Under the pieces are notes generated by a model. That model made no database searches, was not told the DNA's origin, and saw nothing but the letters and a program-made list of their open reading frames with translations. From Kaistia terrae (GTDB taxonomy: Bacteria > Pseudomonadota > Alphaproteobacteria > Rhizobiales > Kaistiaceae), in assembly GCF_026344005.1 (NCBI RefSeq), contig NZ_JAPKNH010000002.1:558001-622000 (forward strand): 64,000 nucleotides of DNA, given 5' to 3'. Both the position numbers and the translations under genes were made by a program. This document shows, piece by piece, positions 16,320 to 33,755 of the stretch. Within the stretch, counting starts at the first letter, position 1. The number at the start of each line of letters is the position of its first letter.

Positions 16320-17600
16320 ATGAGCACTGCATCGCTGTTGAAGCTCGGGGTTGCCGGGCTCGTCTCCATGGGTGTCGCGGGCTCGGCGCTCGCGGCCGAC
16401 AAGCCTCTGGCCGGCATCACGCTCAACCTCGCTTCCCAGAACGATCAGTTCGCGCCGGTGATCGCGAAGCTGGCGCCGAAGTTCGAAGAGGCGACGGGAG
16501 CAACGGTCAAAGTTGATATTCTCGACTACGGCTCACTGCTGACCAAGACCCAGGCCGACTTCGTCGGTCATACCAAGAGCTATGACCTGGTGACGATGGA
16601 TATCGTCTGGGCCGGGCAATATGCCGACAATAAATACACCGTCGACCTGACCGACTGGATCAAGCGCGACGCTGCCGAGATGAAGCTCGACGATATCTAT
16701 CCGTCGACGATCAAGTATATCGGCCAATATGACGGCAAGCAGGTTGCTTTCCCGTTCGCCGGCTATGCGGCGGTGCTTGCCTATCGCAAGGATCTGCTCG
16801 AGGCGGCTGGACTGAAGGTTCCCGAGACGGCCGAAGAGTTCGTCGAGACAGCGATCAAGCTGACCAATCCAGACAAGAAGCAGTATGGCTTCGTCGCCAA
16901 CGGCCAGAAGGGCCCGGCGGTGGCGCAGGATTGGCTGCAGTACAATTCGCAACTCGGCGGCTCGGTGCTCGATGCGTCCGGTAAGCCGGCGATCAATTCG
17001 GAAGCCAACATCAACAGCCTCAAGATCTACAAGGAGCTGTTCGACAAGGCAGCCCCTCCCGGCGCCGTCGATTATGACTGGGGCGGTCGCGAGGAGAGCT
17101 TCCGGCAGGGGATCGCCGCGATGATGGAAACCTGGTCGGTCGGCGCGCCGGGCTACTACGACCCGTCCATGTCGAAGATCGTTGATCATGTCGCCATCAC
17201 GACGACGCCCGGCGCCAAGGGCATGCCGGTCAAGTATGGCCTCGGCGGCTGGGGCATGGGCATCAACGCCGATATCGATCCGGCTCAGCAGGAAGCCGCC
17301 TGGCAGTTCATCAAGTGGCTGACCAGCCCGGAGATCCAGAAGGAATTCAACATGGAGGGCGCCGGCAGCTATATCCGCAAGTCGACGCTGGCCGATCCGG
17401 ACCTCAACAAGAAATTCCCCTACCTTCCGGTGATCGCGAAATCGTTCGAGAACGCCGACGGCGACTATCGTCCCCGCATTCCGCAGTATCCCGAGATCCA
17501 GGATCTGCTCGGTACGGCCGTGAACGCGGTTCTGGTCGGCGGCGTCGAGCCGAAGGCCGCCCTCGATGAGGTCCAGGAAAAGGCTGCGAAGCTGTTCTGA
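16320..17600 (+). CDS. Sugar ABC transporter substrate-binding protein 1
   Basis: Periplasmic binding protein of the carbohydrate (family 1) group, 426 residues. A cleavable signal peptide is visible (LLKLGVAGLVSMGVAGSALA then AD). The mature part shows ATGATVKVDILDYGSLLTK and YDLVTMDIVWAGQYADN, and AWQFIKWLTSPEIQKEF near the C-terminus, typical of sugar binders. First gene of an importer with two permeases behind it; its ATPase is probably the minus-strand gene at 20030-21196. The neighbouring amino-sugar genes suggest an amino sugar or peptidoglycan-derived ligand, an inference from context. Confidence 0.9.
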   Translation: MSTASLLKLGVAGLVSMGVAGSALAADKPLAGITLNLASQNDQFAPVIAKLAPKFEEATGATVKVDILDYGSLLTKTQADFVGHTKSYDLVTMDIVWAGQYADNKYTVDLTDWIKRDAAEMKLDDIYPSTIKYIGQYDGKQVAFPFAGYAAVLAYRKDLLEAAGLKVPETAEEFVETAIKLTNPDKKQYGFVANGQKGPAVAQDWLQYNSQLGGSVLDASGKPAINSEANINSLKIYKELFDKAAPPGAVDYDWGGREESFRQGIAAMMETWSVGAPGYYDPSMSKIVDHVAITTTPGAKGMPVKYGLGGWGMGINADIDPAQQEAAWQFIKWLTSPEIQKEFNMEGAGSYIRKSTLADPDLNKKFPYLPVIAKSFENADGDYRPRIPQYPEIQDLLGTAVNAVLVGGVEPKAALDEVQEKAAKLF

Positions 17601-17690
17601 TCGGCCTAGTCTCCGGGCGAGGGCCTCGGGCTCTTGCCCGGCTCCTCCCCGTGAGCGGGCGAGGGGACTGGCCGTCGCTTCACTGGCGTA

Positions 17691-17726
17691 CTGCACAAGG
17701 TTGATGCCTTTCTCGACCTTGTGCAG
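17691..17726 (+). repeat. Hairpin between binding protein and permease
   Basis: Perfect 11-bp stem CTGCACAAGGT / ACCTTGTGCAG with a 14-base loop in the 152-bp gap. Such hairpins often stabilise the upstream binding-protein mRNA and lower expression of the permeases. No U tract follows. A GC-rich palindromic repeat resembling those elsewhere in the window lies just upstream at about 17611-17670. Confidence 0.55.
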
Positions 17727-17752
17727 GCGAGGACCTAGGGTGGTGTTCCGCA

Positions 17753-18703
17753 TTGGCTACGACTTCCGTCGGTTCGATCGATTTTCCCCAAAGCAAGGCG
17801 TCCGGCCTACGCTTTGCTGACCGGCGCAAGCTGTTCCTTGTCGCCCTCGCCCTGCCGGCCGTGATCTATGTCGTGCTCGTGGCGCTGTGGCCGTTGGCGC
17901 AGGGCATCTGGTACTCGTTCTTCGACTACAATTTGCTGCGCGGCGGTGGACGGCGCACCTTCGTTGGCCTAGCCAATTACGCAGAACTCTGGACGGACTC
18001 GACAGCGCGCCGGGCGCTGGTCAACACCTTCATCTTCACCTTCGCCGCGGTGACGATCGAGTTTGTCTTCGGCCTTTGCCTGGCCCTGCTGCTCTGGCGC
18101 GAGGGCCGATTCAACCGCATCTGCCTCGCCTTCCTGCTGATCCCCGTGACCATCACACCCGTCGTGGTCGGTCTGATTTTTCGCGCGCTTCTGGCCGTCG
18201 ACTACGGCTTCTTCGGCTATTATCTGGCCGAATGGGGCATTTCGGGCCCGCGCGGCTTTCTGGCCTCGACGACGGCGGCCATGCCGGTCGTGATCCTGAT
18301 CGACGTCTGGGAGTGGACACCGCTGGTCGCGCTGATCCTGCTCGCCGGGCTCAAATCGCTGCCGGGCGACATTCTCGAGGCGGCCTCTGCCGATGGCGCG
18401 ACGGCGGTTCAGCGCTTCCGGCTCGTTGTGCTGCCGCTGCTGCTGCCGACCGTATTCCTGGCGCTGGTTCTCCGGGTGATGGACGCGTTTCGTGTGTTCG
18501 ACACCATCTTTGTCACGACGGGAGGCGGGCCGGGCGACACCACCAATTCGCTGATGGTCTATGGCGTCAAGCAGGGCCTGCAATTCTTCAATATCGGCTT
18601 TGCCTCGGCGATCGGTAACGTCATGATCCTGTGCATCGTCGTCCTCTGCGCCGCGTTCACCCTGCTGATCCGTCGGGCCGATGTGAGGGCCAACGAGCGA
18701 TGA
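17753..18703 (+). CDS. Sugar ABC transporter permease 1
   Basis: MalF-type inner membrane permease, 316 residues, six hydrophobic segments. The EAA loop is clear: LPGDILEAASADGATAVQRF then LVVLPLLLP, the contact site for the ATPase. The start is a TTG at 17753 (MATTSVGS) because no ATG in a suitable place gives a full N-terminus; the ribosome site is weak (TAGGG). A four-base ATGA overlap joins it to the next permease. Confidence 0.9.
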   Translation: MATTSVGSIDFPQSKASGLRFADRRKLFLVALALPAVIYVVLVALWPLAQGIWYSFFDYNLLRGGGRRTFVGLANYAELWTDSTARRALVNTFIFTFAAVTIEFVFGLCLALLLWREGRFNRICLAFLLIPVTITPVVVGLIFRALLAVDYGFFGYYLAEWGISGPRGFLASTTAAMPVVILIDVWEWTPLVALILLAGLKSLPGDILEAASADGATAVQRFRLVVLPLLLPTVFLALVLRVMDAFRVFDTIFVTTGGGPGDTTNSLMVYGVKQGLQFFNIGFASAIGNVMILCIVVLCAAFTLLIRRADVRANER

Positions 18704-19518
18704 GAGCCCAAACCCGCCAGATCGCAATCGAGCGCACGACGCTGGTTGTCATCCTCGTCCTCTATATGATCCCGGTCCTGTGGCTGGTCTCGACCGCCTA
18801 CAAGCCGCCGCGCGAGATCTTCTCCTCGCCCCCGACCTTCACCTTCAGCCCGACGCTTTTCAATTTCGAACGCATCTTCCAGCTGTTCGATGTCTGGCAA
18901 TTGCTGAAGTCGAGCCTCGTCATGAGCCTCGGCACCACGGTGTTGTCGCTGCTGCTCGGTGTTCCGGCCGGCTATGCGCTGGCGCGGTCGAAGTCGCGCT
19001 ACGCCATCGTCGTCGCCTATTTCTTCCTGGCGATCCGCACCGTGCCGATCATCGCGACGCTGATCCCGTTCTATCTGATGATGCGCGACATCGGCCTGCT
19101 TGGCAGCTGGTGGGCGGTTATCCTGATCAACACGACACTGAACTGCGCCTTCGTCACCTGGATGATGTTCTCCTATTTCCGTGCGTTGCCGCGCGACATG
19201 GAGGAGGCGGCGCTAACAGATGGCTGCACGCTCTGGGGTGCGTTCTATCGCGTCGCCCTGCCGACCGTTGTGCCCGGTATCATCGCCAGCGCGCTGTTCT
19301 GCATCATGTTCTCGTGGAACGACTTTCTGACGCCGATGTTCCTGACCAATTCGGACACCAAGCCGCTATCGGTGGCGCTGCTGGCCTCCTTCGGCACCAA
19401 GGACATCACCTGGGGCACGCTCGGCGCGCTGGCGCATTTCTCCACCATCCCGATCGTGCTGATGGCGCTGTTCCTGAACCGCTACTTCGTCCAGGGCCTG
19501 ACCAAGGGCGTTCACTGA
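18700..19518 (+). CDS. Sugar ABC transporter permease 2
   Basis: MalG-type permease, 272 residues. EAA loop: LPRDMEEAALTDGCTLWGAF then RVALPTVVPG. Six membrane segments, with the usual SWNDFLTPMFL before the end. It overlaps permease 1 by four bases. No ATPase gene follows on this strand; the nearest is on the opposite strand at 20030-21196. Confidence 0.92.
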   Translation: MRAQTRQIAIERTTLVVILVLYMIPVLWLVSTAYKPPREIFSSPPTFTFSPTLFNFERIFQLFDVWQLLKSSLVMSLGTTVLSLLLGVPAGYALARSKSRYAIVVAYFFLAIRTVPIIATLIPFYLMMRDIGLLGSWWAVILINTTLNCAFVTWMMFSYFRALPRDMEEAALTDGCTLWGAFYRVALPTVVPGIIASALFCIMFSWNDFLTPMFLTNSDTKPLSVALLASFGTKDITWGTLGALAHFSTIPIVLMALFLNRYFVQGLTKGVH

Positions 19519-19890: not shown

Positions 19891-20029
19891 GGCGCGCTCC
19901 GTTGGATGACGGAGCCAAATATCTCACTCTAGGTTGTAGCCTGCTTTGATCGAAATCAACCGATCTCTTTGACGAGATACATGTTTTTACGACCTTAACC
20001 GCAATTTGCCGTTAATTTGCCCCGATTGC

Positions 20030-21196
20030 TCAATCGATGATCGCCTGTTCGGTCGCTTCGTCGAAGAGGTGGATGCGGGACGGGTCGACCGAGAGGCAGA
20101 TTCGATCTGCCTTCCTTACTGGCAGGGTTCCGTCGATTACGGCGCGCAGGCGCGTACGGGCGGAGCTTAGCTCCTCGCCATCTTCGGAGACTCCGGCCGC
20201 CACAACAGACGCTCCGTCGAGGTCGAGATGGACAAGCAGGCTGGCGCCGAGATCCTCGACGAAGGCAACCTTGCCAGAGAGCCTTCCCGGTCCCGGCGTG
20301 GCGTCTTCGAGGAATTGGAACGCCTCGGGGCGGATGCCGGCGATGATATTCCTGTCGGCGAATCGGGGAATCGCGGGCCGTGATTCGATCGCAGCGGCGT
20401 CGAGAGCGATGGTCAGCTGACCGAGTTTCAGCGCGTATCCCGATTCGGTCGCCTCTACTTGGCCGGGAAGCAGGTTCATCGGCGGCGAGCCGATGAAGCC
20501 GGCGACGAACAGATTGGCAGGCGCGTCATAAAGGGTGCGCGGCGCGGCGAGTTGCTGCAGCACGCCCTTGTTCATCACCGCGACGCGGTCGCCCATCGTC
20601 ATCGCCTCTACCTGATCGTGTGTGACATAGACAGTGGTGACGCCGGTCATCTTCTGCAGATGGGCGATCTCGGCTCGCATCTGGCCGCGCAGCCGCGCAT
20701 CGAGATTGGAAAGCGGCTCGTCCATCAGGAACGCCTTTGGCGAGCGCACCAGAGCACGGCCCATGGCGACGCGCTGGCGCTGGCCGCCGGAGAGTCTGCC
20801 CGGCTTGCGGTCGAGCAATTCGGTAAGCTCCAGCAGCTTCGCGGTTTCCTCGACCTTGGTGCGGATCTCCGCCTTGTTCGAGCCGCGCACCTTGAGGCCG
20901 AAGCCGATATTGTCGGCGACCGTCAAATGCGGATAGAGCGCGTAGGACTGGAACACCATGGCGATGTTGCGGTCGCGCGGCGACAGGTCGTTGGCGACGG
21001 CGCCGTCAATGACGAGCACACCATCCGAGATTTCCTCGAGGCCGGCGATCATCCGGAGTGCTGTCGACTTGCCGCAGCCTGAGGGGCCGACCAGCACCAG
21101 AAACTCGCCATCGGCGATCTTCAAATCGAGCGCGTTGACGGCAAGCTGGCCGTCATCGTAGCGCTTCGTCACTCGCTCAAAAACGATCTCGGCCAT
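20030..21196 (-). CDS. Sugar ABC transporter ATP-binding protein 1
   Basis: MalK/UgpC-type ATPase of 388 residues. Walker A is GPSGCGKST, the Q loop [10 protein letters not shown], the signature [16 protein letters not shown], Walker [13 protein letters not shown], and the switch His VTHDQVEAM. The C-terminal regulatory TOBE-type region follows. Of two ATGs, 21196 is preferred because a GAGGGA ribosome site lies six bases upstream; 21202 abuts it. It is probably the energising subunit for the permeases at 17753-19518, and heads the minus-strand amino-sugar group only in the sense of lying last in that direction. Confidence 0.93.
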   Translation of the reverse strand: MAEIVFERVTKRYDDGQLAVNALDLKIADGEFLVLVGPSGCGKSTALRMIAGLEEISDGVLVIDGAVANDLSPRDRNIAMVFQSYALYPHLTVADNIGFGLKVRGSNKAEIRTKVEETAKLLELTELLDRKPGRLSGGQRQRVAMGRALVRSPKAFLMDEPLSNLDARLRGQMRAEIAHLQKMTGVTTVYVTHDQVEAMTMGDRVAVMNKGVLQQLAAPRTLYDAPANLFVAGFIGSPPMNLLPGQVEATESGYALKLGQLTIALDAAAIESRPAIPRFADRNIIAGIRPEAFQFLEDATPGPGRLSGKVAFVEDLGASLLVHLDLDGASVVAAGVSEDGEELSSARTRLRAVIDGTLPVRKADRICLSVDPSRIHLFDEATEQAIID

Positions 21197-21314
21197 TGCC
21201 ATTCCCTCATGTCGCGCAACCAGCGTGCCACGCGCGACGACCGGCTGTCAAAGCCGAGGACTGCTGTAATTTCAATCGTTTCGGTGCCTTGCGCGTCATG
21301 TTCGGCGGCAACGT

Positions 21315-22055
21315 TCAGGTGGATGAATTCTCGAACATCCGCAGGATATCGACCAACTCGGCAACGCTTGCCTCCGATGTGACGTCGAGCAGCGAATCCG
21401 ATGCGAAACCGAGCGCCACGGCTTCCGGGGCTACCGTCTGGCGACCCGTGCGGCAGGAGGCATGGATCTCTCGCGCACCGGTTTCCGTCAGTACCTGGAG
21501 CGCGTTTTCCGGTCGGACCCCAGAGCCCGGCATGATCGAGATCCGATCGCCGGCGCGCTCGACCAGTAGCTTCAGCGCGTCGAGCGCATCCAGCGCCTTA
21601 CGCGCGCCGCCCGAGGTCAGAATGCGTTCGAAGCCGAGCGAGATCGCCGTTTCCAGCGCATCGTCGAAGTCCGGGACGAGGTCGAAGGCCCGGTGCAGCG
21701 TCGCGCCGAGGCCTTCCGCATGATGGCGCAGATGGAACAGCGCCTCCGCGTCAAGCTTGCCACGCGGCTGCGACGCGCCGAGCACGATACCGGCCAGGCC
21801 GGCTTCGCGGGCGGCATCGATATCGCGGCGCATCTGATCGATCTCGCCGGGCGAGAAGACGAAGTCGCCTTCACGCGGGCGGATCATCGCATAGACCGGC
21901 ACGGCGGTCTTGGCGGCAATGCGCATCAGGCCCGGGGAGGGCGTCAGTCCGCCGATCGATAGCGCGCTGCAAAGTTCAATTCGGTCAGCGCCGCCCTTGA
22001 TCGCGGCGGCGAGGCCGTCGGGCGTGTCGACGCAGATTTCGAGCTGGATTTTCAT
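21315..22055 (-). CDS. cutC: CutC family protein
   Basis: TIM-barrel protein of the CutC family, 246 residues from MKIQLEICV. Signatures: EICVDTPDGLAAAIKGGADR, IELCSALSIGGLTPS, VYAMIRPREGDFVFS and ILTSGGARKALD. CutC is named for copper tolerance, but a direct copper role is disputed and the fold looks enzymatic. Here it lies 52 bases behind the ROK kinase gene in the amino-sugar operon, with no copper genes near. Longer starts at 22082 and 22067 are possible; the chosen one matches the conserved N-terminus. Confidence 0.88.
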   Translation of the reverse strand: MKIQLEICVDTPDGLAAAIKGGADRIELCSALSIGGLTPSPGLMRIAAKTAVPVYAMIRPREGDFVFSPGEIDQMRRDIDAAREAGLAGIVLGASQPRGKLDAEALFHLRHHAEGLGATLHRAFDLVPDFDDALETAISLGFERILTSGGARKALDALDALKLLVERAGDRISIMPGSGVRPENALQVLTETGAREIHASCRTGRQTVAPEAVALGFASDSLLDVTSEASVAELVDILRMFENSST

Positions 22056-22107
22056 GGCGGGGTTCATTTCGCTCGTATGCATGTTCGTCTTCTTGAGCCG
22101 GATTGGA

Positions 22108-23016
22108 TCACGCGCGGAGTTCGTCCGCCAGCATCGCCGCACCGATCAGTCCGCTGGCGCCGCGTGTGCGTCCGGGAACGACCAGTGGCTCATCGTAGCG
22201 GCCGAGCACGCGCTGACGCACAGCAGTGTCGATCAAGGCCAGCAGCGCCGCGTCGGAGGAGAGGCCACCGCCAACGGGGATCACCCAGGGGCCGATCGTG
22301 TTGACGATCACTGCGAGCGATCCGGCGATCAATTCGACGAAGGTTTCGACGGTCCGCGTCGCGCCCACGTCACCGGCGTGCCAGATCTCGGTGATCGCCT
22401 GGCTGGTCAGCGTCTCGCCGGTGAGGGCCGCGTGGATGCGCTCTAGGCCTCTCGCGGAACCATAGCTATCGAGACAGCCAAGCTGACCGCAGCCGCAGCG
22501 GATGACGGGGATGCCGCGCGCCGCTACCGCCTCGGCCATGGTTGGGCCATGCCCCCATTCGCCGGTGACGCCATGTGCACCGCGCACCATGCGGCCGCCA
22601 ATGACCAGGCCGCCGCCGACGCCGGTACCCAGAATGGCGCCGAAGACGATCGGCATGCCCTTGCCGGCGCCGACCGTCGCCTCGGCCAGCGCGAAGCAAT
22701 CCGCGTCGTTGCCGACCCGGACCGGAACGCCGAGTGCTGCCGAAATTTCGTTTTCGAGATGATGGCCGTTAACGACCGGGACATTGGCCGCCTGGGCGAT
22801 GCCGGTCGCACTGTCCGTCGTGCCGGCGATCGAAATGCCGATCTGCTGCGGATTGCCGCCATCGGCCGCGACCAGCCTTTGCAGGGCGGCAACGAAATCG
22901 CCCCAGCTTGTGTGCGGCGTAGGCCACGTGGCACGGTTTGAGACCGTGCCGTCCTTGCTGACGCGTGCGAATTCGATCTTCGAGCCGCCAATGTCGAAGG
23001 CTGCGGTTTGCGACAT
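22108..23016 (-). CDS. nagK: ROK family N-acetylglucosamine kinase
   Basis: Sugar kinase of the ROK family, 302 residues. ATP motif AFDIGGSKIEFARV at the N-terminus; GTGVGGGLVIGG; GVTGEWGHGP with the substrate Glu and zinc His; and the ROK zinc motif CGCGQLGCLDSYGS. It converts GlcNAc to GlcNAc-6-phosphate, the NagA substrate. It lies 13 bases behind nagA, so co-transcribed. The start at 23016 has a GGAG ribosome site. N-acetylglucosamine is the likely substrate by context; glucose or N-acetylmannosamine are alternatives. Confidence 0.88.
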   Translation of the reverse strand: MSQTAAFDIGGSKIEFARVSKDGTVSNRATWPTPHTSWGDFVAALQRLVAADGGNPQQIGISIAGTTDSATGIAQAANVPVVNGHHLENEISAALGVPVRVGNDADCFALAEATVGAGKGMPIVFGAILGTGVGGGLVIGGRMVRGAHGVTGEWGHGPTMAEAVAARGIPVIRCGCGQLGCLDSYGSARGLERIHAALTGETLTSQAITEIWHAGDVGATRTVETFVELIAGSLAVIVNTIGPWVIPVGGGLSSDAALLALIDTAVRQRVLGRYDEPLVVPGRTRGASGLIGAAMLADELRA

Positions 23017-23029
23017 GACGGCTCCGGGC

Positions 23030-24193
23030 TCAGGCGAGCGGTGCAAAATGCTGGCGCTCGCCGCCGATGAAGACACCAGAAACGGACAGATCCGCTGCCA
23101 GATGGACGAAATCGGCGCGCGAACCCGGCGCGATCCGGCCATGCGTGCGGTCAATGCCGAGGAATTGGGCCGGATAGAGCGAGGCCATGCGCAGCGTTTC
23201 GTCGAGGCCGATGCCGACGGTGCCGGTCATGAAGCGAATGGCGCCGACCATATCGAGATCTGAGCCCGCCAGCGTGCCGTCATCCAGCGTCAGCTTGCCG
23301 TTCTCGCGGGTGATGACCCGGCCGTTCAGCTCAAACTCCGTCATGTTCGTGCCGATCGTCGACATGGCGTCGGTGACAATGAAGATCCGCCCCGGCGCGC
23401 GCTTGGCGCGCAATGCGTTGGCGATCGCCGCCGGATGCACATGCAGGCCGTCCGGGATAATGCCGCACCAGGCATCTGGACTGTCGAGCGCCGCGCCGAC
23501 AACGCCGGGAGAGCGATGGCCGAGTTGGCTCATGGCGTTGAAGAGATGCGTAATGCCGCGCGCGCCGGCGTTGAACGCTGCCATGGCGGTCTCATAAGAC
23601 GCGTCGGAATGGCCGATGGCGACATGTACGCCGGCCGCCGTCAGCCGGGCGATCTGCGCCGGCGGCACGGTTTCGGCGGCGACTGTGGTCAGCACATGTT
23701 CGAGGCCGGTCGAGATCAGCCGTTCGAGGTCGGCCTCGTCCATCGGGCGGATATAGGCGGGGTTATGGGCGCCCTTGCGCGCAATCGAGAGGTGCGGACC
23801 CTCGATATGGATGCCGAGACAGCCGGGTACGCCGGCGGCGATGGCGTCGCGCGTGGCGTTGATCGACGCTTCCGTCACGGCCGGTGTGTCGGTGATCAGC
23901 GTCGGCAGCAGCGCCGTCGTGCCGTAGCGCGCATGCGCCGTGCAGATGGTGCGGATGCCGTCGATCGTCGCGGCGCTGTTCAGCAACGCGCCGCCGCCGC
24001 CATTGACCTGCGCGTCGACGAATCCGGGGGCGAGCAGGCCGCTGCCGAGATCAATGGTCGCGATGCCCTCCGGCAAGAAGCCCGGCCCGACGATGTCGAC
24101 CACCTGGCCCGCTTCGGCCAGAACGGCAGCGTTCCGGCGACGGGTCGCGCCGTCAAACAGTTCGGCGCTCAAAAAGGCGGTCCGGCTCGACAT
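23030..24193 (-). CDS. nagA: N-acetylglucosamine-6-phosphate deacetylase
   Basis: Removes acetate from GlcNAc-6-phosphate. The 387-residue amidohydrolase has LLAPGFVDAQVNGGGG (NagA type, no HxH), the metal Glu in IHIEGPHLS, the metal His in VAIGHSDASYE and GITHLFNAMS, and the catalytic Asp in IVTDAMSTIG. Length is normal. A GGAAGAG ribosome site supports the start at 24193. Operon order on this strand is deaminase, nagA, nagK, cutC. Confidence 0.95.
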   Translation of the reverse strand: MSSRTAFLSAELFDGATRRRNAAVLAEAGQVVDIVGPGFLPEGIATIDLGSGLLAPGFVDAQVNGGGGALLNSAATIDGIRTICTAHARYGTTALLPTLITDTPAVTEASINATRDAIAAGVPGCLGIHIEGPHLSIARKGAHNPAYIRPMDEADLERLISTGLEHVLTTVAAETVPPAQIARLTAAGVHVAIGHSDASYETAMAAFNAGARGITHLFNAMSQLGHRSPGVVGAALDSPDAWCGIIPDGLHVHPAAIANALRAKRAPGRIFIVTDAMSTIGTNMTEFELNGRVITRENGKLTLDDGTLAGSDLDMVGAIRFMTGTVGIGLDETLRMASLYPAQFLGIDRTHGRIAPGSRADFVHLAADLSVSGVFIGGERQHFAPLA

Positions 24194-24270
24194 GGGGCTC
24201 TTCCTGAAAATCCGTATTGGTAGATGGATAGCACGGCTCCTCCGGGAGGATAGGGCCGCGATTTGTTGCT

Positions 24271-24300
24271 GCTTCACCCCTCTCTCGGGGAGAGGTGAAG
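24271..24300. repeat. GC-rich palindromic intergenic repeat
   Basis: Near-perfect hairpin CTTCACCCCTCTC / GAGAGGTGAAG between the SIS deaminase and nagA. Its CACC-CTCTC...GAGAG-GTG core recurs at 29580-29700 and 33801-34010, so it belongs to a dispersed repeat family. Confidence 0.7.
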
Positions 24301-24316
24301 AGCGCTCCCCAAAACC

Positions 24317-25342: not shown

Positions 25343-25364
25343 CGTCGTTTTCCTTTGTCCGACC

Positions 25365-26129
25365 TTAGCGGGGAGACACTTCGGCCAGGTTCAATTCTGC
25401 TACGAAATCATAGGCATCACCGCGATACAGCGAGCGGGTAAACTCGACAACGCGGCCATCGGGCAGGTAGGAGATGCGTTCGATTGCCAGAACGGCGGAC
25501 CCGGATGCCATGCCGAGAAGCGCCGCGTCGGCGCTGCCGACATTTTCGGCGTTGAGCCTCTGCACGGCGCGAACCGGGCGCATGCCAAGCGAATCCAGCG
25601 CATCGTAGAGCGAGTTCTGCACAATCGAGGGATCCGGCAGGATGCGTCCCGGAACGACGGCGCGCTCAAGCGCCATCGGCTCGTTGTCCGCCATGCGCAG
25701 GCGATGGAAGCGCGCGACGCGCTCGGTCGGTGCGAGGCCAAGGATCATCGCCTCGGCTGATGTCGGCATGCCGAAGGAGCGTTCGAGCCAGCTCGCTGTC
25801 GGCATCAGGCCGCGGCTCTTCATGTCCTCGGTGAAGGAGGAGAGGCGCGAAAGCGGCTGCTCGACACGGCCGCCGCTGCGCGAAACGAAAGTCCCGGAGC
25901 CATGGCGCTGGCGAAGCACGCCCTCGGCGACGAGGCCCTGGATCGCCTTGCGCACCGTGACGCGCGACACACCGAGCGAAGTCGCCATGTCGCGTTCAGG
26001 CGGCAAAGCGCCGTTGGCCGGCAGCTTGCCGTTGGAAATGGCTGAGCGAATCAGCGCCTGCAGGCGGGTATAGAGCGGCCCGCCTTCTTCGTCGGCCAGT
26101 TGCTCCGGCGTGAGAAGGAACTCGCTCAT
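25365..26129 (-). CDS. GntR/HutC-type regulator of the amino-sugar genes
   Basis: A 254-residue regulator with an N-terminal winged helix (MATSLGVSRVTVRKAIQGLV, EGVLRQRHGSGTFVS) and a C-terminal UTRA ligand domain (LERAVVPGRILPDPSIVQNS, SAVLAIERISYLPDGRVVEF). Members in nag clusters (NagR, NagQ, DasR) sense amino-sugar phosphates. The start overlaps the kinase stop upstream by four bases (ATGA) and it precedes the deaminase by 22 bases, so it is autoregulated within the operon. TGGTAY boxes at 27102-27298 are its probable sites. Confidence 0.9.
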   Translation of the reverse strand: MSEFLLTPEQLADEEGGPLYTRLQALIRSAISNGKLPANGALPPERDMATSLGVSRVTVRKAIQGLVAEGVLRQRHGSGTFVSRSGGRVEQPLSRLSSFTEDMKSRGLMPTASWLERSFGMPTSAEAMILGLAPTERVARFHRLRMADNEPMALERAVVPGRILPDPSIVQNSLYDALDSLGMRPVRAVQRLNAENVGSADAALLGMASGSAVLAIERISYLPDGRVVEFTRSLYRGDAYDFVAELNLAEVSPR

Positions 26130-27031
26130 GCCGGCACCTCGGCGGAAACCAGCGTGGCGGCGAGGCGAAGCGCGCCGTCTAGCGCATCGCCGGCCGGGGG
26201 CGTGACATAGGCGGAAATCGTCGGCGACAGCCGCGCTGCATAGAGCGGCGCAAGGCCGCCCAGCAGGCTGATGCGCGCCGCGCCCAGAGCGACGAGGCGG
26301 CTCAGCGCCACCTCGATGTCGCGGGTCGCTTCGTCGACGATCGCCGTTGCGTTGGCGTCGCCGGAGGCCGCACGATCAAAGACCAGCGGCGCAAAGGTGC
26401 CATAGTCGCGGGGGAGCGCCGACTTGCAAAAGGTCACCATTCGGTCGGGCTGGCCATCGAATTGCGCCAGCACGGCATCGGTCAGTCCGGACGGCCCGAT
26501 CAGTGCATCATGCGCCAGCACGGATCGCCGGAGCGCCATGTGGCCGAGCCAGGCGCCACTGCCCTGGTCGCCGAGCTGGAAGCCCCAGCCGCCAACGGTG
26601 ATGAAGACGCCGCCGGTCTGCACGACATAGGCGGTGCCGGTGCCGAGGATGGCGATGGCGCCGTTGCCGTCCGGGTGCGCACCGCGACAGGCAATCCATG
26701 CATCCATCTCAAGCGCTGTGCGTGCGAACGGGAGGTCGGAGGCGAGGAAGCGCTCGGAGAGATCCGGGATATTGGCGCCAGCGAGGCCGAGGCCGACGAA
26801 ACAGCGGCCGAGATCGGCGCTGGAAAGGCCACCTTCGACCAGAGCGCCATCGACCGCGGCAATGATGTTGTCACGCGCCGCGTCGATCCCAGCCAGGATA
26901 TTCGCCGTTCCGGTGACGCACTCGCCGATCGGGGTGCCGTCGAGCCAGCTCGCGCGTGCCCGGCACCGGGTGCCGCCGCCGTCGACGCCTACCAGAATCG
27001 GTTGGCCAGCCCTTGCTATGGATCCGGACAT
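26126..27031 (-). CDS. BadF/BadG-family amino-sugar kinase (MurK/NagK-like)
   Basis: A 301-residue ASKHA-fold kinase. ILVGVDGGGTRCRARA is the phosphate-binding motif, followed by GSGAWLGHMALR after WGFQLGDQG, and AIAILGTGTAYVV, all typical of the BadF/BadG/BcrA ATPase family that includes N-acetylglucosamine kinase and the MurK kinase of Clostridium acetobutylicum, which phosphorylates both MurNAc and GlcNAc at position 6. It is the first gene of the minus-strand nag operon and divergent from murQ, so a MurNAc kinase role is attractive. Start at 27031 is set by the DGGGT motif position; longer in-frame extension enters the promoter. Confidence 0.85.
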   Translation of the reverse strand: MSGSIARAGQPILVGVDGGGTRCRARASWLDGTPIGECVTGTANILAGIDAARDNIIAAVDGALVEGGLSSADLGRCFVGLGLAGANIPDLSERFLASDLPFARTALEMDAWIACRGAHPDGNGAIAILGTGTAYVVQTGGVFITVGGWGFQLGDQGSGAWLGHMALRRSVLAHDALIGPSGLTDAVLAQFDGQPDRMVTFCKSALPRDYGTFAPLVFDRAASGDANATAIVDEATRDIEVALSRLVALGAARISLLGGLAPLYAARLSPTISAYVTPPAGDALDGALRLAATLVSAEVPA

Positions 27032-27336
27032 ATCACCCGCTTCGAGCCAAAATGCGAGGTTGCAGGCGGCCGGAAGGCCCGATCCGGATGCCGGCACTGA
27101 TAATACCAAATTGAATCCAGTTGGGAAGAGTGAATGCTGTGCGCGGAAGGCGGAGTTTTGTATTGCGGGAAGGCGATCTGCCAAATAATTGCGCAACATG
27201 TTGAATTTTATAACGTAATTTGATTCTCGCGGTGTTCTTTTGAAAAGTCCCGATGAGCGGGTGCGTGACGTCTGGACGTAATGGTACTTTGTTGGTATCG
27301 TTTTCTTCAGAATGCATTTGGGGGAATGTCTGATCC
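27032..27336. promoter_or_regulatory. Divergent nag/mur promoter region with TGGTAY boxes
   Basis: This 305-bp gap between the kinase and murQ is AT-rich compared with its surroundings. It contains TGGTATT on the minus strand (27102-27108) and a direct pair TGGTAC (27282-27287) and TGGTAT (27293-27298) spaced 11 bases, one helical turn, on the plus strand, 50 bases before murQ. TGGTAT-type half-sites are typical of GntR/HutC regulators of amino-sugar genes. I propose that the GntR regulator controls both operons here. No coding frame found. Confidence 0.55.
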
Positions 27337-28245
27337 ATGGCAATGCCGCGCACGGAAGTGGTGGAAGACCGCTTTGATGGTATCGATCTCTGGTCATCCG
27401 TCGACGCGCTAGCCGCTTTGGCCGATGGGCAGATTCGGGGCGCGATGTCCGTCCGCGCTGCCATCCCCGCTCTCGCCGCCGCCGCGGAGCAGGCCGCTGA
27501 CCGGCTCTCCAAGGGTGGGCGTCTCGTCTATTTCGGCGCCGGTTCGTCCGGCTTGCTGGCTCTCGTCGACGCTCTCGAAATTCCGCAGACCTTCAGCATC
27601 CCGCAGGGCCAGATCCTCGTGCTGATGGCCGGCGGCATGGCCATGACCGAAACGCTGACCGGCGGGCCAGAGGATGTCGCGGAACTCGGCGTCGCCGACA
27701 TCGAGAGCGCGAAGCTCGGCCCCAATGATTGCGTTGTGGCGGCATCTGCCAGCGGCTCGACGCCCTATACGGTCGCTGGCCTCGAAGCGGCGCGGAAGAC
27801 GGGCGCTTCGACCGTGGCTATTGCCTGCAATGCCTCGGCGCCGTTGTTTGCCCATGCCGACATCGCCGTGTTCCTCGATTCCGGGCCGGAAGTGCTGGCC
27901 GGGTCGACGCGGATGGGCGCGGGCACGGCGCAGAAGGCCGCCTTCAACATGCTTTCGACGATGATCGCCATTCGGCTCGGCCATGTCGTTGACGGCATGA
28001 TGGTCAATGTCCGCGCCGACAACGCCAAGCTGCGCGGCCGCGCTGCGCGCATCATCTCGCGGATCGCAAAGGTCGACGACGCGGCCGCTATTGGCGCGCT
28101 CGACGCGGCCGAAGGCGAGGTCAAGCCCGCCATCCTGATCGCGGCCGGGGCGACCAGCCTCGCGACTGCCGGCGCCCTGCTCGCCAAGCATTCAGGCAAT
28201 CTCCGTGCGGCGCTATCCGCACTGGCAAAAAGCAGAATCGCATAA
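27337..28245 (+). CDS. murQ: N-acetylmuramic acid 6-phosphate etherase
   Basis: Cleaves the lactyl ether of MurNAc-6-phosphate, giving GlcNAc-6-phosphate and D-lactate. The 302-residue SIS protein has LVYFGAGSSGLLALVDALEI, with Glu81 matching catalytic Glu83 of E. coli MurQ, and TGGPEDVAELGV, where Glu112 matches Glu114; the preceding Glu of the usual EGAED is Gly here. CVVAASASGSTPYTVAGLEAA and GSTRMGAGTAQKAAFNMLST are diagnostic. First gene of a plus-strand operon with a sugar ABC importer. ATGs at 27337 and 27343 are both possible, behind GGGGGAA. Confidence 0.93.
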   Translation: MAMPRTEVVEDRFDGIDLWSSVDALAALADGQIRGAMSVRAAIPALAAAAEQAADRLSKGGRLVYFGAGSSGLLALVDALEIPQTFSIPQGQILVLMAGGMAMTETLTGGPEDVAELGVADIESAKLGPNDCVVAASASGSTPYTVAGLEAARKTGASTVAIACNASAPLFAHADIAVFLDSGPEVLAGSTRMGAGTAQKAAFNMLSTMIAIRLGHVVDGMMVNVRADNAKLRGRAARIISRIAKVDDAAAIGALDAAEGEVKPAILIAAGATSLATAGALLAKHSGNLRAALSALAKSRIA

Positions 28246-28296: not shown

Positions 28297-29568
28297 ATGA
28301 ACCATCTGAGGAAGACGTTGCTTGTGACGACAGTCGCGGCGATCGGCGCGGGCTTTGCGGCTCCGGCTTTCGCCGAAGACGTCACGCTGACCATCGAAAG
28401 CTGGCGCAATGACGATCTGCCGATCTGGCAGGAGAAGCTGATCCCGGCCTTCGAAGCCAAGAATCCGGGCATCAAGCTGAACTTCGCTCCGTCCGCCCCG
28501 ACCGAGTATGACGCGGCGCTCGGCGCCAAGCTCGATGCAGGCTCGGCCGGCGACATCATCACCTGCCGTCCGTTCGACAAGTCGCTGGCGCTGTTCCAGA
28601 AGGGCCAGTTGGCCTCGCTCAGCGATCTGCCGGGCATCGAGGGCTTCTCGCCGGTCGCCAAGTCCGCCTGGATCACCGATGACGGCAAGGACACGTTCTG
28701 CGTGCCGGTCGCCGCCGTCATCCACGGCTTCATCTACAACAAGGAAGCCTTCGACAAGCTCGGCATCACCGTGCCGCAGACCGAAGACGAGTTCTTCGCA
28801 GCGCTCGAGAAGATCAAGGCCGACGGCACCTACATCCCGCTCGCCATGGGCACCAAGGATCTCTGGGAAGCCGCGACGATGGGCTACCAGAACATCGGTC
28901 CGAACTACTGGAAGGGCGAAGAGGGCCGTCTGGCTCTGATCGCCGGCACCCAGAAGCTGACCGATCCGCAGTGGGTCGAGCCCTTCGCGACGCTCGCCAA
29001 GTGGGCGCCTTACATGGGCGACGGCTTCGAGGCCCAGACCTATCCCGATAGCCAGAACCTGTTCACGCTCGGCCGCGCCGCCATCTACCCGGCCGGTTCG
29101 TGGGAAATCTCGGGCTTCAACACCCAGGCCCAGTTCAAGATGGGTGCGTTCCCGCCGCCGGTTAAGAAGGCCGGCGACGAGTGCTTCATCTCGGACCACA
29201 CCGATCTCGCGATCGGCATGAACGCCAAGACGGCGCATCCGGAAGCTGCCAAGAAGTTCCTGTCCTGGGTTGCTTCGCCTGAGTTCGCCGACATCTACGC
29301 CAACGCGCTGCCGGGCTTCTTCAGCCTGTCCTCGACGCCGGTGAAGATGCAGGACCCGCTCGCCGAGGAGTTCGTCTCCTGGCGTGAGAAGTGCAAGCCG
29401 ACGATCCGCTCGACCTACCAGATCCTGTCGCGCGGTACGCCGAACCTCGAGAACGAGACCTGGACGGAATCGGCCAATGTGATCAACGGCACCGATACGC
29501 CGCAGGTCGCCGCCGAGAAGCTCCAGAAGGGCCTCGACGCCTGGTTCAAGCCGGCTGCTGCCAAGTAA
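28297..29568 (+). CDS. Sugar ABC transporter substrate-binding protein 2
   Basis: Periplasmic sugar-binding protein, 423 residues, with a signal peptide (LLVTTVAAIGAGFAAPAFA then ED). The mature N-terminus VTLTIESWRNDDLPIWQEKL and PAFEAKNPGIKLNF, plus GRAAIYPAGSWEISGF and KKFLSWVASPEFADIYAN, are typical of family 1 carbohydrate binders. It begins 51 bases after murQ behind GAGAGGAG, making MurNAc or a muramyl-type sugar an attractive ligand. That ligand is inferred only from gene order. Confidence 0.9.
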   Translation: MNHLRKTLLVTTVAAIGAGFAAPAFAEDVTLTIESWRNDDLPIWQEKLIPAFEAKNPGIKLNFAPSAPTEYDAALGAKLDAGSAGDIITCRPFDKSLALFQKGQLASLSDLPGIEGFSPVAKSAWITDDGKDTFCVPVAAVIHGFIYNKEAFDKLGITVPQTEDEFFAALEKIKADGTYIPLAMGTKDLWEAATMGYQNIGPNYWKGEEGRLALIAGTQKLTDPQWVEPFATLAKWAPYMGDGFEAQTYPDSQNLFTLGRAAIYPAGSWEISGFNTQAQFKMGAFPPPVKKAGDECFISDHTDLAIGMNAKTAHPEAAKKFLSWVASPEFADIYANALPGFFSLSSTPVKMQDPLAEEFVSWREKCKPTIRSTYQILSRGTPNLENETWTESANVINGTDTPQVAAEKLQKGLDAWFKPAAAK

Positions 29569-29579
29569 GGAAAAAAAAA

Positions 29580-29772: not shown

Positions 29773-30720
29773 ATGACCACGATCGACACAACCGACCCGG
29801 ATGCCGTCGCCAAGCGACCGGTGCGCTGGCATATCGCCGTCTTCCTGGCACCCGCCGTGCTGATCTACACAGCCGTGATGATCCTGCCTCTGATTGAGAC
29901 GTTGCGGCTGTCGCTGTTCAACGTCGTCGACAACCAGTCGATCTTCGTCGGCTTCGACAATTTCAAGGTGCTGTTCGGCGATGACCGCTGGTCGGTCTCG
30001 TTCTGGAACGCCCTCAAGAACAATCTCGTCTTCTTCCTGATACACATGGTCGTGCAGAACCCGATCGGCATCGCGCTGGCGGCGCTGCTGTCGCTGCCCG
30101 TTCTGCGCCTGCGCGGGTTCTACCGGACTGCGATCTTCCTGCCGACCATCCTCTCCTTCGTCATCGTCGGCTTCATCTGGAAGCTGATCCTGTCGCCGAT
30201 CTGGGGCGTCGCGCCCTTCCTGATGGATCTGGTCTGGATGAAGTCGTTCTTCGGCCCGTGGCTCGGCAAACCGGCGAGCGCGCTCGTCACGGTGTCACTG
30301 GTCTCCGTCTGGCAGAATATCGGCATCCCGATGATGCTGATCTATGCGGCGCTGCTGTCGATCCCGGACGAGGTGATCGAGGCGGCCGAATGCGACGGTG
30401 TCACCGGCTGGAGCCAGTTCTTCAAGATCAAGCTGCCTTTGATCCTGCCGACCATTGGCATCGTCTCGATCCTGACCTTCGTCGGCAACTTCAACGCCTT
30501 CGATCTCGTCTACACGATGCAGGGCGCGCTGGCCGGACCGGATGGGTCGACCGACATTCTCGGCACCTTCCTCTACCGCACCTTCTTCGGCTTCCAGCTG
30601 CAGGTCGGCGATCGCTCGATGGGCGCGACCATCGCGACCGTGATGTTCCTGATCATCCTCGCCGGCGTCAGCCTCTATCTCTTCGTCATCCAGCGGCGCA
30701 TCCGCCGCTACCAGTTCTGA
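29773..30720 (+). CDS. Sugar ABC transporter permease 3 (MalF type)
   Basis: Permease of 315 residues, six membrane segments (for example WHIAVFLAPAVLIYTAVMIL). The EAA loop reads IPDEVIEAAECDGVTGWSQF then KIKLPLILPT. Two starts are close, 29764 and 29773; the second has an AAGAG ribosome site at the right distance. The frame extends upstream through the repeat element but that is not coding. It is followed by the second permease after eight bases. Confidence 0.9.
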   Translation: MTTIDTTDPDAVAKRPVRWHIAVFLAPAVLIYTAVMILPLIETLRLSLFNVVDNQSIFVGFDNFKVLFGDDRWSVSFWNALKNNLVFFLIHMVVQNPIGIALAALLSLPVLRLRGFYRTAIFLPTILSFVIVGFIWKLILSPIWGVAPFLMDLVWMKSFFGPWLGKPASALVTVSLVSVWQNIGIPMMLIYAALLSIPDEVIEAAECDGVTGWSQFFKIKLPLILPTIGIVSILTFVGNFNAFDLVYTMQGALAGPDGSTDILGTFLYRTFFGFQLQVGDRSMGATIATVMFLIILAGVSLYLFVIQRRIRRYQF

Positions 30721-30728
30721 GGCGGGCC

Positions 30729-31568
30729 ATGTCGAAAGCACGTTCCTCTGTGGCCCGTTCCGGCTTCGTCCATCTGGCGTTGGGCGGTTACACGCTGCTG
30801 GCGCTGTTCCCGATCTTCCTGGTCGTCGCCAACTCGTTCAAGGCGCGCGCGGGCATCTTTTCCGCGCCGCTGCAATTGCCGAACGCCACCACCTTCAGCC
30901 TCATAGGCTACCAGACCGTCCTGAAGCAGGGCGATTTCCTCGGCTATTTCCAGAACAGCCTGATCGTCACCATCCTGTCGATCTTTTTGGTGCTGCTGTT
31001 CGGCGCAATGGCGGCGTTTGCGCTGTCGGAATACCGCTTTCGCGGCAACACGATGATGGGGCTCTATCTGGCGCTCGGCATCATGATCCCGATCCGTCTC
31101 GGCACGGTGGCGATCCTGCAGGGCATGGTCGCGACCGGACTCGTCAACACGCTGACGGCGCTGATCCTCGTCTATACGGCGCAAGGTTTGCCGCTCGCGG
31201 TGTTCATCCTGTCGGAATTCATGCGGCAGGTGTCGGCCGATCTCAAAAACGCCGGCCGGGTCGACGGGCTTTCGGAATACACGATCTTCTTCCGCCTGGT
31301 GCTGCCGCTGGTGCGGCCGGCGATGGCGACGGTCGCCGTCTTCACCATGATCCCGATCTGGAACGATCTCTGGTTCCCGCTGATCCTGGCGCCGAGCGAG
31401 GCGACCAAGACGGTCACGCTGGGCGCGCAGATGTTCATCGGCCAGTACGTCACCAACTGGAACGCTGTGCTCTCTACGCTGTCGCTGGCGATCCTGCCGG
31501 TGCTCATCCTCTATCTGATCTTCTCGCGCCAGCTCATCCGCGGCATCACCGCCGGAGCGGTGAAGTGA
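30729..31568 (+). CDS. Sugar ABC transporter permease 4 (MalG type)
   Basis: Permease of 279 residues. EAA-type loop: VSADLKNAGRVDGLSEYTIF then RLVLPLVRPA; here the EAA itself is replaced by KNAGRVDG, an accepted variant in this subfamily. Six segments including FVHLALGGYTLLALFPIFLV. Starts eight bases after permease 3 with GGCGGG as ribosome site. The Gfo/Idh/MocA gene follows after 74 bases. Confidence 0.9.
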   Translation: MSKARSSVARSGFVHLALGGYTLLALFPIFLVVANSFKARAGIFSAPLQLPNATTFSLIGYQTVLKQGDFLGYFQNSLIVTILSIFLVLLFGAMAAFALSEYRFRGNTMMGLYLALGIMIPIRLGTVAILQGMVATGLVNTLTALILVYTAQGLPLAVFILSEFMRQVSADLKNAGRVDGLSEYTIFFRLVLPLVRPAMATVAVFTMIPIWNDLWFPLILAPSEATKTVTLGAQMFIGQYVTNWNAVLSTLSLAILPVLILYLIFSRQLIRGITAGAVK

Positions 31569-31642
31569 ATTTCCCGCCAACTCTGCGCCCGTCGATTTTG
31601 CAAAGACTGCGCCCGTCCATTTTGAATGCAGGTTGCTGACCC

Positions 31643-32695
31643 ATGACCAGTCCTCTCCGCGTCTTCGTTGCCGGCCTTGGCCAGATGGGGCGCAGCCACG
31701 CGCTCGCCTATCACGCCAATCCGGGCTTCGAGATCGTCGGCCTGTACAACCGCTCGGAAGTCGACCTGCCGGATGAGTTGAAGGCCTATCCGCGCGTCGA
31801 AAGCTTTGATGCGGGCCTGGCGCTGAAGCCGGACGTTGTTTCGGTCAACACCTATACCGACAGCCACGCTCCCTTCGCCATCGCGGCGATGGAAGCCGGC
31901 GCGCATGTCTTCGTCGAGAAGCCTCTGGCCGCCAACGCGGAAGCGGCGCGCGCGGTCGTCGACGCGGCGAAGCGCACCGGCAAGAAGCTCGTCATCGGCT
32001 ACATCTTGCGCCATCACCCGTCCTGGATCGGCTTCATCGCCAAGGCGCGCGAACTCGGCCCGCCCTTCGTCATGCGGATGAACTTGAACCAGCAGTCTTC
32101 CGGCCCGAGCTGGCACATCCACAAACAACTGATGCAGACGACCTCACCGCTGGTCGATTGCGGCGTCCATTATGTCGACGTCATGTGCCAGATCACCGAT
32201 GCGAAGCCGGTCGAGGTTCGCGGTATGGGCGTGCGCCTCTCCAGCGAGATCGCCGAGACGCAGGTCAATTACGGGCACCTGCAGGTCATCTTCGAGGACG
32301 GTTCGGTCGGCTGGTACGAGGCCGGCTGGGGCCCGATGATTTCGGAAACCGCCTTTTTCGTGAAGGACGTGATGAGCCCGAAGGGCTCCGTCTCGATCGT
32401 CATGGACGAGGGCGCGAAGTCGGACGATGTCGACACCCACACCAAGACGGCGCGCATCCGCGTCCATCATTCGGAACTCAAGGCCGACGGCTCGTTCGAG
32501 CGCTCCGACGAGTGGTTTTCCACGGAGGACGAGCCCGGACACCAGGCACTTTGCGACCGCGAACAGGCTTATCTGCTGAAGGCGATCCGTGAGGATATCG
32601 ATCTCACCCGCCACATGCAGGACGCCGTCACCTCGCTCGAAATCGCGCTGGCCGCCGAGGTCAGCATGCGTGAGGGCAGGGTGGTGAAGCTGTGA
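31643..32695 (+). CDS. Gfo/Idh/MocA family sugar dehydrogenase
   Basis: NAD(P)-dependent oxidoreductase of 350 residues. [19 protein letters not shown] gives the Rossmann motif, [11 protein letters not shown] the catalytic Glu-Lys-Pro at residues 92-94, and [20 protein letters not shown] the second-domain catalytic region. Members act on sugars, inositols, or hydrolyse glycosides by an oxidation step. It is placed between the permeases and the ATPase of the second importer, so it probably acts on the imported sugar. Substrate not determined. Confidence 0.9.
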
Positions 32696-32756
32696 TCCAT
32701 TCGATGAACACGGCGCCTTCGCGCGCCCTTCAGGCAGACCTGCGAGGGAGCATCTC

Positions 32757-33755
32757 GTGAGCGCACTTACCCTTCAGAACGTCACCAAGCGCTTTGGATC
32801 GACGGATGTCATCCGTGGCGTCGATCTCGAGGTCGCCGAGGGCGAGTTCGTCGTTTTCGTCGGGCCTTCAGGCTGTGGAAAGTCGACGCTGCTTCGCATT
32901 ATCGCGGGGCTGGAGGACCAGACCTCCGGCCATGTGACCATTGCGGGTAAAAATGTCGACGTGACGCCGCCGGCCAAGCGCGGCATCGCCATGGTGTTCC
33001 AGAGCTACGCGCTCTACCCGCATCTGACGGTGAAGGGCAACATGGGGCTGGCGCTGAAGCAGGAGGGCGTCGAGAAGAGCGAGATCGAGCGTCGCATCGC
33101 CTCGGCCGCCAAGATGCTGCATCTCGACACGCTGCTCGGTCGCCGTCCGTCGGAGCTTTCGGGCGGCCAGCGCCAGCGCGTCGCTATCGGCCGCGCCATC
33201 GTGCGCCAGCCAAAGCTGTTCCTGTTCGACGAACCGCTTTCCAATCTTGACGCAGCGCTGCGCGTCAACACGCGCATCGAGATCGCCAACCTGCACCGCC
33301 TGCTCGGCGCGACGATGATCTACGTCACGCATGATCAGGTCGAGGCGATGACGCTGGCCGACAAGATCGTCGTGCTCAGCGCCGGCAAGATCGAGCAGGT
33401 CGGCCGTCCGATCGACCTCTACAACAAACCCGCCAATCTCTTCGTCGCCGGCTTCATTGGCTCGCCGAAGATGAACTTCCTCACCGGTGCGGCCGCCACG
33501 AAGCTTGGCGCGGAAACGATCGGCATTCGACCCGAGCACGTTCGGGTTGTGCCGACCGGCGGCAATTGGGAAGGCAAGGTCAGCCATCTCGAAAAGCTGG
33601 GCTCGGACACTTTCGTCTATGTCGCCGTCGAGGGCGCCGATATGGTCACGGTCCGGATCGTTGGCCAGGAAGACTTTGAAATTGGCTCGACCATCGGTCT
33701 ATCGGCCGACGAGGGGCATATCCACCGCTTCGGCAAGGACGGCCGGGCGCTCTGA
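32757..33755 (+). CDS. Sugar ABC transporter ATP-binding protein 2
   Basis: MalK/UgpC-type ATPase, 332 residues: Walker [11 protein letters not shown] loop [10 protein letters not shown], signature [16 protein letters not shown], Walker [13 protein letters not shown], switch VTHDQVEAM, and a shortened C-terminal regulatory region compared with the first ATPase. It starts with GTG at 32757 behind GCGAGGGAG. Last gene of the murQ-led operon; a block of palindromic repeats follows. Confidence 0.93.

Follow-up and report, generated by a model that had tools for sequence, protein, structure and literature searches.

The 64,000-nucleotide stretch of the Kaistia terrae genome analyzed here (hereafter the window; contig NZ_JAPKNH010000002.1, positions 558,001 to 622,000) carries a divergently transcribed amino-sugar locus, in which nagA, a gene for a NagB-II type glucosamine-6-phosphate deaminase, a gene for a GntR-type regulator and a BadF-family kinase gene face murQ and an ATP-binding cassette (ABC) importer, importer 2. 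With moderate confidence, we read this locus as a NagQ-type regulon for the use of extracellular and recycled N-acetylglucosamine (GlcNAc), working without a phosphotransferase system (PTS) and with MurQ as an accessory branch. GlcNAc or short GlcNAc oligomers, the predicted cargo, would enter through importer 2 with its ATPase ATP2; inside the cell, the ROK kinase, the BadF kinase or both would phosphorylate it, if their predicted specificities hold. Deacetylation by NagA and deamination by NagB-II would then give fructose-6-phosphate. The MurQ branch would deliver additional GlcNAc-6-phosphate to NagA, its substrate coming either from recycling, by AnmK acting on anhydro-N-acetylmuramic acid (anhydroMurNAc), or from a side activity of BadF on N-acetylmuramic acid (MurNAc). 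A GntR/UTRA protein, predicted to be a repressor, would govern both operons from a tandem operator in the 305-bp gap that separates them.

Pfam and NCBIfam scans of the window proteins confirmed the gene content given in a preliminary description of this DNA: two sets of substrate-binding protein (SBP) and permease genes, two UgpC-type ATPases, CutC, ROK, NagA, a SIS protein of the NagB-II type, GntR-UTRA, BadF, MurQ and Gfo/Idh (Table 1). The geometry was described correctly only in part. The genes from ATP1 to BadF (20030-27031) do lie opposite murQ, on the minus strand, but SBP1 and the two permease genes of importer 1 (16320-19518) are on the plus strand. The start of BadF was placed near 27031, not at 27397, which leaves the divergent gap ahead of murQ. 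The gene content also supports PTS-free amino-sugar catabolism to fructose-6-phosphate. On paper the pathway is complete in one place for GlcNAc, as had been proposed; for MurNAc, a putative source, it hangs on a predicted kinase specificity and on an atypical MurQ.

The arrangement recurs well beyond Kaistia, and is best read as a conserved PTS-free GlcNAc catabolic divergon of the Hyphomicrobiales, Sinorhizobium included. Among 80 named loci, it was found in Kaistia, Sinorhizobium/Ensifer, Rhizobium, Mesorhizobium and Aureimonas, and partially in Devosia. The nagA side was counted in the 77 loci with at least 4.5 kb there, which carry nagA (77), nagB-II (76), the GntR gene (77) and BadF, adjacent to murQ as in the window (59). 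On the downstream side, counted in the 71 loci with at least 6 kb, importer 2 was present in 59 and the Gfo gene in 58. BadF was found in 59 of the 63 loci having importer 2 and in 0 of the 14 lacking it, two of which (L019 and L039) extend less than 4 kb downstream. The closest full-length named murQ is that of Kaistia defluvii (85%), and a partial murQ in a Hyphomicrobiales metagenome-assembled genome is 87% identical to that of the window. SBP2, the binding protein of importer 2, is better conserved (about 67-95% identity to the window protein) than MurQ (48-87%) or BadF (38-85%). Across 249 genomes of the order, importer 2 was detected in 50. Of these, 34 have murQ immediately before it, 4 have murQ at another place and 12 have none, two of these 12 genomes being 61% and 75% complete.

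The divergent gap holds an exact match to TGGTAY-N5-TGGTAY at 27282-27298, the sole exact copy in the 5.59 Mb genome. The half-site AATACCA or its complement is present in all 51 BadF/murQ intergenic regions (the window and 50 named loci), with a half-site spacing that is most often 11 bp; TGGYAY-N5-TGGYAY occurs in 48 of them and the strict TGGTAY-N5-TGGTAY in 38. Within Kaistia, the exact site was found in all seven genomes with MurQ at the locus, and none was found in the stretches read from the five genomes without it. A scan for pairs of 8-mers skipped the window site, one half-site of which has two mismatches to the 8-mer letters, and the 6-letter version caught it. Looser matches are less informative: with up to two mismatches the window gave 4 matches against 2.34 expected, as many as in 18 of 100 shuffles and so not clearly above chance, and with one mismatch the genome gave 10 matches against 30 for a reversed control. 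What supports the operator is thus that an exact match is present, that the genome has no second copy and that the site is conserved, and not the two-mismatch count. Passages of PMC5343134 describe NagQ sites as tandem repeats and place NagQ in alpha- and betaproteobacteria.

The preliminary description had proposed that importer 2 (or importer 1) brings in free MurNAc, that BadF converts it to MurNAc-6-phosphate, and that MurQ, NagA and NagB-II complete a PTS-free pathway. We find this unlikely. That murQ immediately precedes importer 2 in 34 of the 50 genomes speaks for it, but the 12 genomes that have importer 2 without any MurQ make GlcNAc, rather than MurNAc, the likely cargo. Five of these 12 loci (L134-L138) keep BadF and the GntR gene beside importer 2, together with an exact operator, and their BadFs nest inside the locus-type BadF tree; these loci favor GlcNAc as the cargo of importer 2 and BadF as a GlcNAc kinase. 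MurQ without BadF, seen in 18 of 77 loci, and the atypical character of the MurQ also count against this proposal. Judged from these distributions, the cargo of importer 2 is most likely GlcNAc.

The nearest relatives of the window BadF argue in the same direction, since they are NagK-type models and structures; in NCBIfam it matches nothing but the model of the Shewanella-type GlcNAc kinase. The ROK protein is nearest to GlcNAc kinases by model (below the cut-off), and among solved structures they come second to an unnamed "regulator". MurNAc import does draw support from elsewhere. In other Hyphomicrobiales a related BadF gene adjoins MurQ. MurA-type genes and peptide importers are often found with the two, and several of these loci combine a MurA-type gene with AnmK and a family-5 peptide binding protein. 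The pocket position of the window BadF reads GGWG, as in the dual-specificity Clostridium MurK and the GlcNAc kinase human NAGK, so that this motif is compatible with either specificity, and passages of PMC5790795 report that a Clostridium BadF-type MurK acts on both MurNAc and GlcNAc. The Tannerella MurK has S-P-L at this place (S133-P134-L135), small residues that open a lactyl pocket, according to passages of PMC10465942. The residue preceding the catalytic Asp varies among the locus BadFs (M, T, S, H, N or P).

The absence of a PTS, also noted in the preliminary description, was confirmed for PTS_EIIC (PF02378), which had no match in the genome (other PTS families were outside the search), and this too is compatible with MurNAc import. 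However, the genome encodes AnmK and NagZ, so that MurNAc-6-phosphate can come from recycling and no MurNAc importer is needed; it does not follow that ABC import and a cytoplasmic kinase are its obligatory source. The genome also contains a TsaE-APH fusion (AmgK-like) followed by a gene for a MurU-like nucleotidyltransferase (L098, positions 719-3024, on contig 37 of G000). No match to AmpG was found in the genome with TIGR00901. For the related genomes, AnmK and MurU were checked in 39 of 81, a set made up of the genomes with the 80 named loci plus that of the window. The MurU model NF045761 matched in all 39 and in all 14 controls, never above its cut-off, and only the best match of the window's own genome was taken further, by way of its TsaE-APH neighbor. 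AnmK was detected in 32 of the 39, which again weakens the case for MurNAc import; as a general source of MurNAc-6-phosphate it fits these 32 genomes and fails in the other seven. In Agrobacterium, as stated in passages of PMC9790009, muropeptides are taken up through YejBEF-YepA, and AnmK, MupP, AmgK and MurU probably process the MurNAc.

The seven genomes without AnmK (G002, G021, G023, G026, G031, G035 and G037) belong to Devosia, Arsenicitalea and one Hyphomicrobiales metagenome-assembled genome. Each has a BadF relative that matches the NagK_SO3507 model, and the two that were read (L102 and L103) lie in an unrelated neighborhood. These two and L101 carry a diverged BadF kinase of Devosia-type genomes that may be a glucokinase; the genes right after it look like zwf, pgl and edd.

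Several observations weigh against a GlcNAc regulon with MurQ as a side branch. Only five of the 12 loci that have importer 2 but no MurQ retain BadF, which lowers our confidence. Another of them, L140, keeps the GntR and NagB-II genes without BadF, and no nag gene appears in the stretches read for the remaining six (L139 and L141-L145, three of them shorter than 15 kb), so that some of these importer 2 relatives may carry other sugars. The sequence and fold neighbors of SBP2 include, besides the chitin-oligosaccharide binding protein that heads its fold matches, binders of raffinose, xylan and maltose. BadF, NagB-II and ROK all score below the curated NCBIfam cut-offs. In Kaistia, the locus holds either both BadF and MurQ (seven genomes) or neither (five) in all 12 genomes that could be resolved, and G047 has the two genes without importer 2 there, which suggests that BadF serves MurQ and not only GlcNAc. 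This tally covers 12 of the 14 genomes of the genus (contig ends cut the loci of G045 and G046), absence refers to the locus, except that for MurQ and SBP2 in G039, G044 and G051 it holds for the whole genome, and the losses represent few events rather than 12 independent ones. The seven genomes without AnmK also lack BadF at the locus, and this reading does not account for the MurQ substrate there; they are the best pointer to another kinase or to another MurQ substrate. Finally, the likeness of the window operator to NagQ sites is at the level of the tandem-repeat form. A BadF acting on both GlcNAc and MurNAc would fit L134-L138 and the shared fate in Kaistia alike.

The MurQ of the window belongs to a distinct clade, which we call N-type. 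We compared 112 MurQ sequences, namely the window, 72 of the 80 named loci (eight were dropped by filters) and 39 others. L109, in which a single in-frame stop codon interrupts the murQ of a distant member of the Pseudomonadota, was left out of all MurQ counts, and L125 was not extracted. As previously described, MurQ keeps both catalytic Glu: E81 and E112 are found in all 73 locus sequences and, like R192 and K231, do not vary in any of the 112. We take E81 and E112 to correspond to E83 and E114 of the E. coli enzyme. At positions 73, 109, 194 and 216, the window MurQ has L, G, G and H, and so do nearly all of the 84 N-type sequences (83 L and 1 M; 84 G; 83 G and 1 A; 84 H), whereas the other 28 have R (28), E (27), K (24) and K or R (25). 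Thus, all 84 lack the R73 and E109 of other MurQs. In a tree of 55 of the 112 sequences (27 of the 84 N-type and all 28 others), the N-type sequences form a single clade with 100/100 support. The window protein scores 238.9 bits against the TIGR00274 equivalog, under the cut-off of 302, and 319.5 bits against the broad NF003915, above the cut-off of 168. A literature search by title, abstract and passages, with most subscription journals outside its scope, returned no account of this clade.

Five genomes (G027, G029, G148, G168 and G350) were read with both an N-type and a canonical MurQ. In the four whose canonical gene was read with its neighbors (L099, L100, L132 and L160), it lies beside an RpiR-type gene. 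Three of these (L099, L100 and L132), to which L147, L151 and L152 are related, carry RpiR, a MurA-type gene, BadF, the canonical MurQ, a family-5 peptide binding protein, two permeases, an ABC ATPase, a beta-lactamase-fold protein and AnmK. Gene labels come from a Pfam scan for L100 alone, the RpiR genes of L099 and L132 being putative. By its gene content, this type of locus looks like a muropeptide import and recycling unit.

The N-type protein could be something other than a MurNAc-6-phosphate etherase, that is, a paralog performing the same C2-C3 elimination on another substrate to give GlcNAc-6-phosphate or a relative, possibly with the Gfo/Idh protein. We consider this possible but rather unlikely. 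The consistent departure from the R/E/K/basic pattern, the separate clade below the equivalog cut-off and the coexistence with canonical MurQ in five genomes all point to it, as does the occurrence of N-type MurQ in the seven genomes with neither AnmK nor BadF at the locus. On the other hand, the invariant catalytic and other residues, the match to the broad model and the position beside nagA fit plain MurNAc-6-phosphate, and contact of the changed positions with the substrate is hypothetical. A more specific form, in which a neofunctionalized clade in alphaproteobacterial nag loci has kept the elimination, has lost the Arg, Glu and basic residues typical of MurNAc-6-phosphate etherases and acts on a different 3-O-substituted or C3-activated amino sugar, perhaps after oxidation by Gfo/Idh, appears rather doubtful. 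The Gfo/Idh gene also favors a different substrate, being present in 58 of the 59 named loci with both MurQ and importer 2. In importer 2 loci without MurQ, it was not found in L136-L138, L141, L143 and L144 and was present in L134, L135, L139 and L140; a link between Gfo and MurQ is possible.

The preliminary description counted two ABC importers in the unit, and for importer 1 this was not borne out. It lies on the strand of murQ, no operator was found at its promoter, and among the 80 named loci its permease b occurs only in the three from Kaistia. SBP1, found in 14 of 14 Kaistia genomes and in 16 of 61 relatives (search at E 1e-60), neighbors a flavin adenine dinucleotide (FAD) oxidoreductase, a questin-oxidase-like gene, an amidohydrolase and a major facilitator superfamily gene; in the window these lie at 10941-16052, divergent from SBP1. 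In L181, from another family, SBP1 comes with the amidohydrolase, questin-oxidase-like and FAD oxidoreductase genes and its own convergent ATPase, and no nag genes were found within the 20 kb read. From this comparison, importer 1 is most likely a separate neighboring module and not part of the nag unit.

The alternative in which importer 1 cooperates with ATP1 and CutC to bring in amino sugars as well seems quite improbable. Importer 1 lies close to the nag operon throughout Kaistia, within about 0.5-5 kb of ATP1 in 14 loci, and ATP1 belongs to that operon. Furthermore, three Kaistia genomes without importer 2 or MurQ (G039, G044 and G051) retain SBP1 along with nagA, nagB-II, ROK and ATP1, so that importer 1 could serve the nag enzymes there. 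Against this stand the very close relationship of SBP1 to 5iai, the best solved relative, whose ligand is ribitol, the promoter without an operator, the self-contained module of L181, and the 2-5 kb that separate importer 1 from ATP1 in eight of the 14 loci. ATP1 is convergent with the importer 1 genes and stays with cutC-ROK-nagA even where it is kilobases away from importer 1.

The ROK and CutC genes are adjacent and on the same strand in all 26 named loci having either, and the pair moves among three places. Outside the named set, L159 has CutC after MurQ and no ROK within 19.5 kb. This pairing points to a sugar phosphate, not copper, as the target of CutC. Coordinates of all features are listed in Table 1.

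Table 1. Features of the amino-sugar locus and of the neighboring importer 1 module, in window coordinates.
Feature	Position	Strand	Basis
ATP1, UgpC-type sugar ABC ATPase, distal gene of the Kaistia nag operon	20030..21202	-	NF008653, 445 bits (cut-off 432)
CutC family protein, adjoins the ROK gene	21315..22082	-	PF03932, 2e-75
ROK kinase, predicted GlcNAc kinase	22108..23016	-	NF009835, 1.5e-63 (under its cut-off); 7p7i, 3.3e-48
NagA, GlcNAc-6-phosphate deacetylase	23030..24193	-	TIGR00221, 300.6 bits (above cut-off 225.65)
NagB-II type SIS glucosamine-6-phosphate deaminase	24317..25342	-	NF046059, 3.1e-93, 312.7 bits (below cut-off 430); deaminase 8eol, 1.9e-71
GntR/UTRA regulator, NagQ-like	25365..26129	-	Pfam scan; in 77/77 named loci whose nagA side spans 4.5 kb or more
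BadF-family sugar kinase, predicted GlcNAc kinase, possible MurNAc activity	26126..27031	-	NF046058 (NagK_SO3507), 6.8e-62 (below cut-off)
Divergent promoter region, 305 bp	27032..27336		Between BadF and murQ
Tandem operator TGGTAC-N5-TGGTAT	27282..27298	+	Exact TGGTAY-N5-TGGTAY match
Weaker second tandem site, BadF side	27103..27119	-	2 mismatches; such matches expected by chance
MurQ of the distinct N-type clade	27337..28245	+	Profile models, alignment, tree
SBP2, importer 2 binding protein	28297..29568	+	Top fold match 7ehq, chitin-oligosaccharide binding protein, 22% identity
Importer 2 permease a	29773..30720	+	Family scans
Importer 2 permease b	30729..31568	+	Family scans
Gfo/Idh/MocA oxidoreductase	31643..32695	+	Family scans
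ATP2, UgpC-type ATPase of importer 2	32757..33755	+	NF008653, 455.1 bits (above cut-off 432)
SBP1, importer 1 binding protein, judged outside the nag unit	16320..17600	+	5iai match, 1.2e-191
Importer 1 permease a, judged outside the nag unit	17753..18703	+	Family scans; neighborhood comparison
Importer 1 permease b, judged outside the nag unit	18700..19518	+	Family scans; neighborhood comparison

What importer 2, BadF and the N-type MurQ handle decides whether their carriers eat MurNAc or only recycle it, and the carriers of importer 2 (50 of the 249 genomes of the order) belong to groups that meet both chitin and peptidoglycan. A neofunctionalized MurQ clade, if real, would mean that GlcNAc catabolism takes in an amino sugar not yet known. 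The broad model names the N-type protein a MurNAc-6-phosphate etherase and the stricter equivalog does not, so that annotation by the broad model misleads if the substrate differs. The question can readily be tested with the genomes that have both MurQ types and with the Kaistia genomes whose locus lacks MurQ and BadF.

Compared with known systems, the N-type MurQ shares with canonical MurQ (TIGR00274) the SIS family, both catalytic Glu and the other invariant residues, and differs in having L/G/G/H in place of R/E/K/basic, in forming a separate clade and in scoring under the equivalog cut-off. The MurNAc/GlcNAc kinase MurK of Clostridium (8zo3, presumably from Clostridium acetobutylicum) has in common with the window BadF the family, the GGWG motif and the catalytic Asp, but it is a weak match (2.8e-11), the window protein being closer to 1zc6 (1.7e-32) and to the NagK_SO3507 model. 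The Sinorhizobium meliloti GlcNAc locus (L025) has its genes in the same order, nagA-nagB-II-GntR-BadF facing murQ-SBP2-permeases-Gfo-ATP2, with a ROK-CutC pair nearby; in Kaistia this pair is inside the nag operon and ATP1 is added. GapMind reportedly lists SMc02869 and SMc02871-02873 as the S. meliloti GlcNAc importer. A mutant-fitness basis for this assignment was not found in the literature searched, which included parts of PMC9007349. The NagQ regulon of Proteobacteria, as presented in passages of PMC5343134, shares a regulator of the GntR family, a tandem-repeat operator and nagA and nagB as targets; its core has a PTS transporter, where the window locus has an ABC importer and kinases instead. 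Finally, the MurT-MurK-MurQ operon of Tannerella forsythia, described in passages of PMC5790795, is also PTS-free and has a BadF-family kinase adjoining murQ, but Tannerella uses a MurT of the sodium-symporter type, and its MurK has S-P-L (passages of PMC10465942) where the window BadF, aligned through human NAGK, has GGWG.

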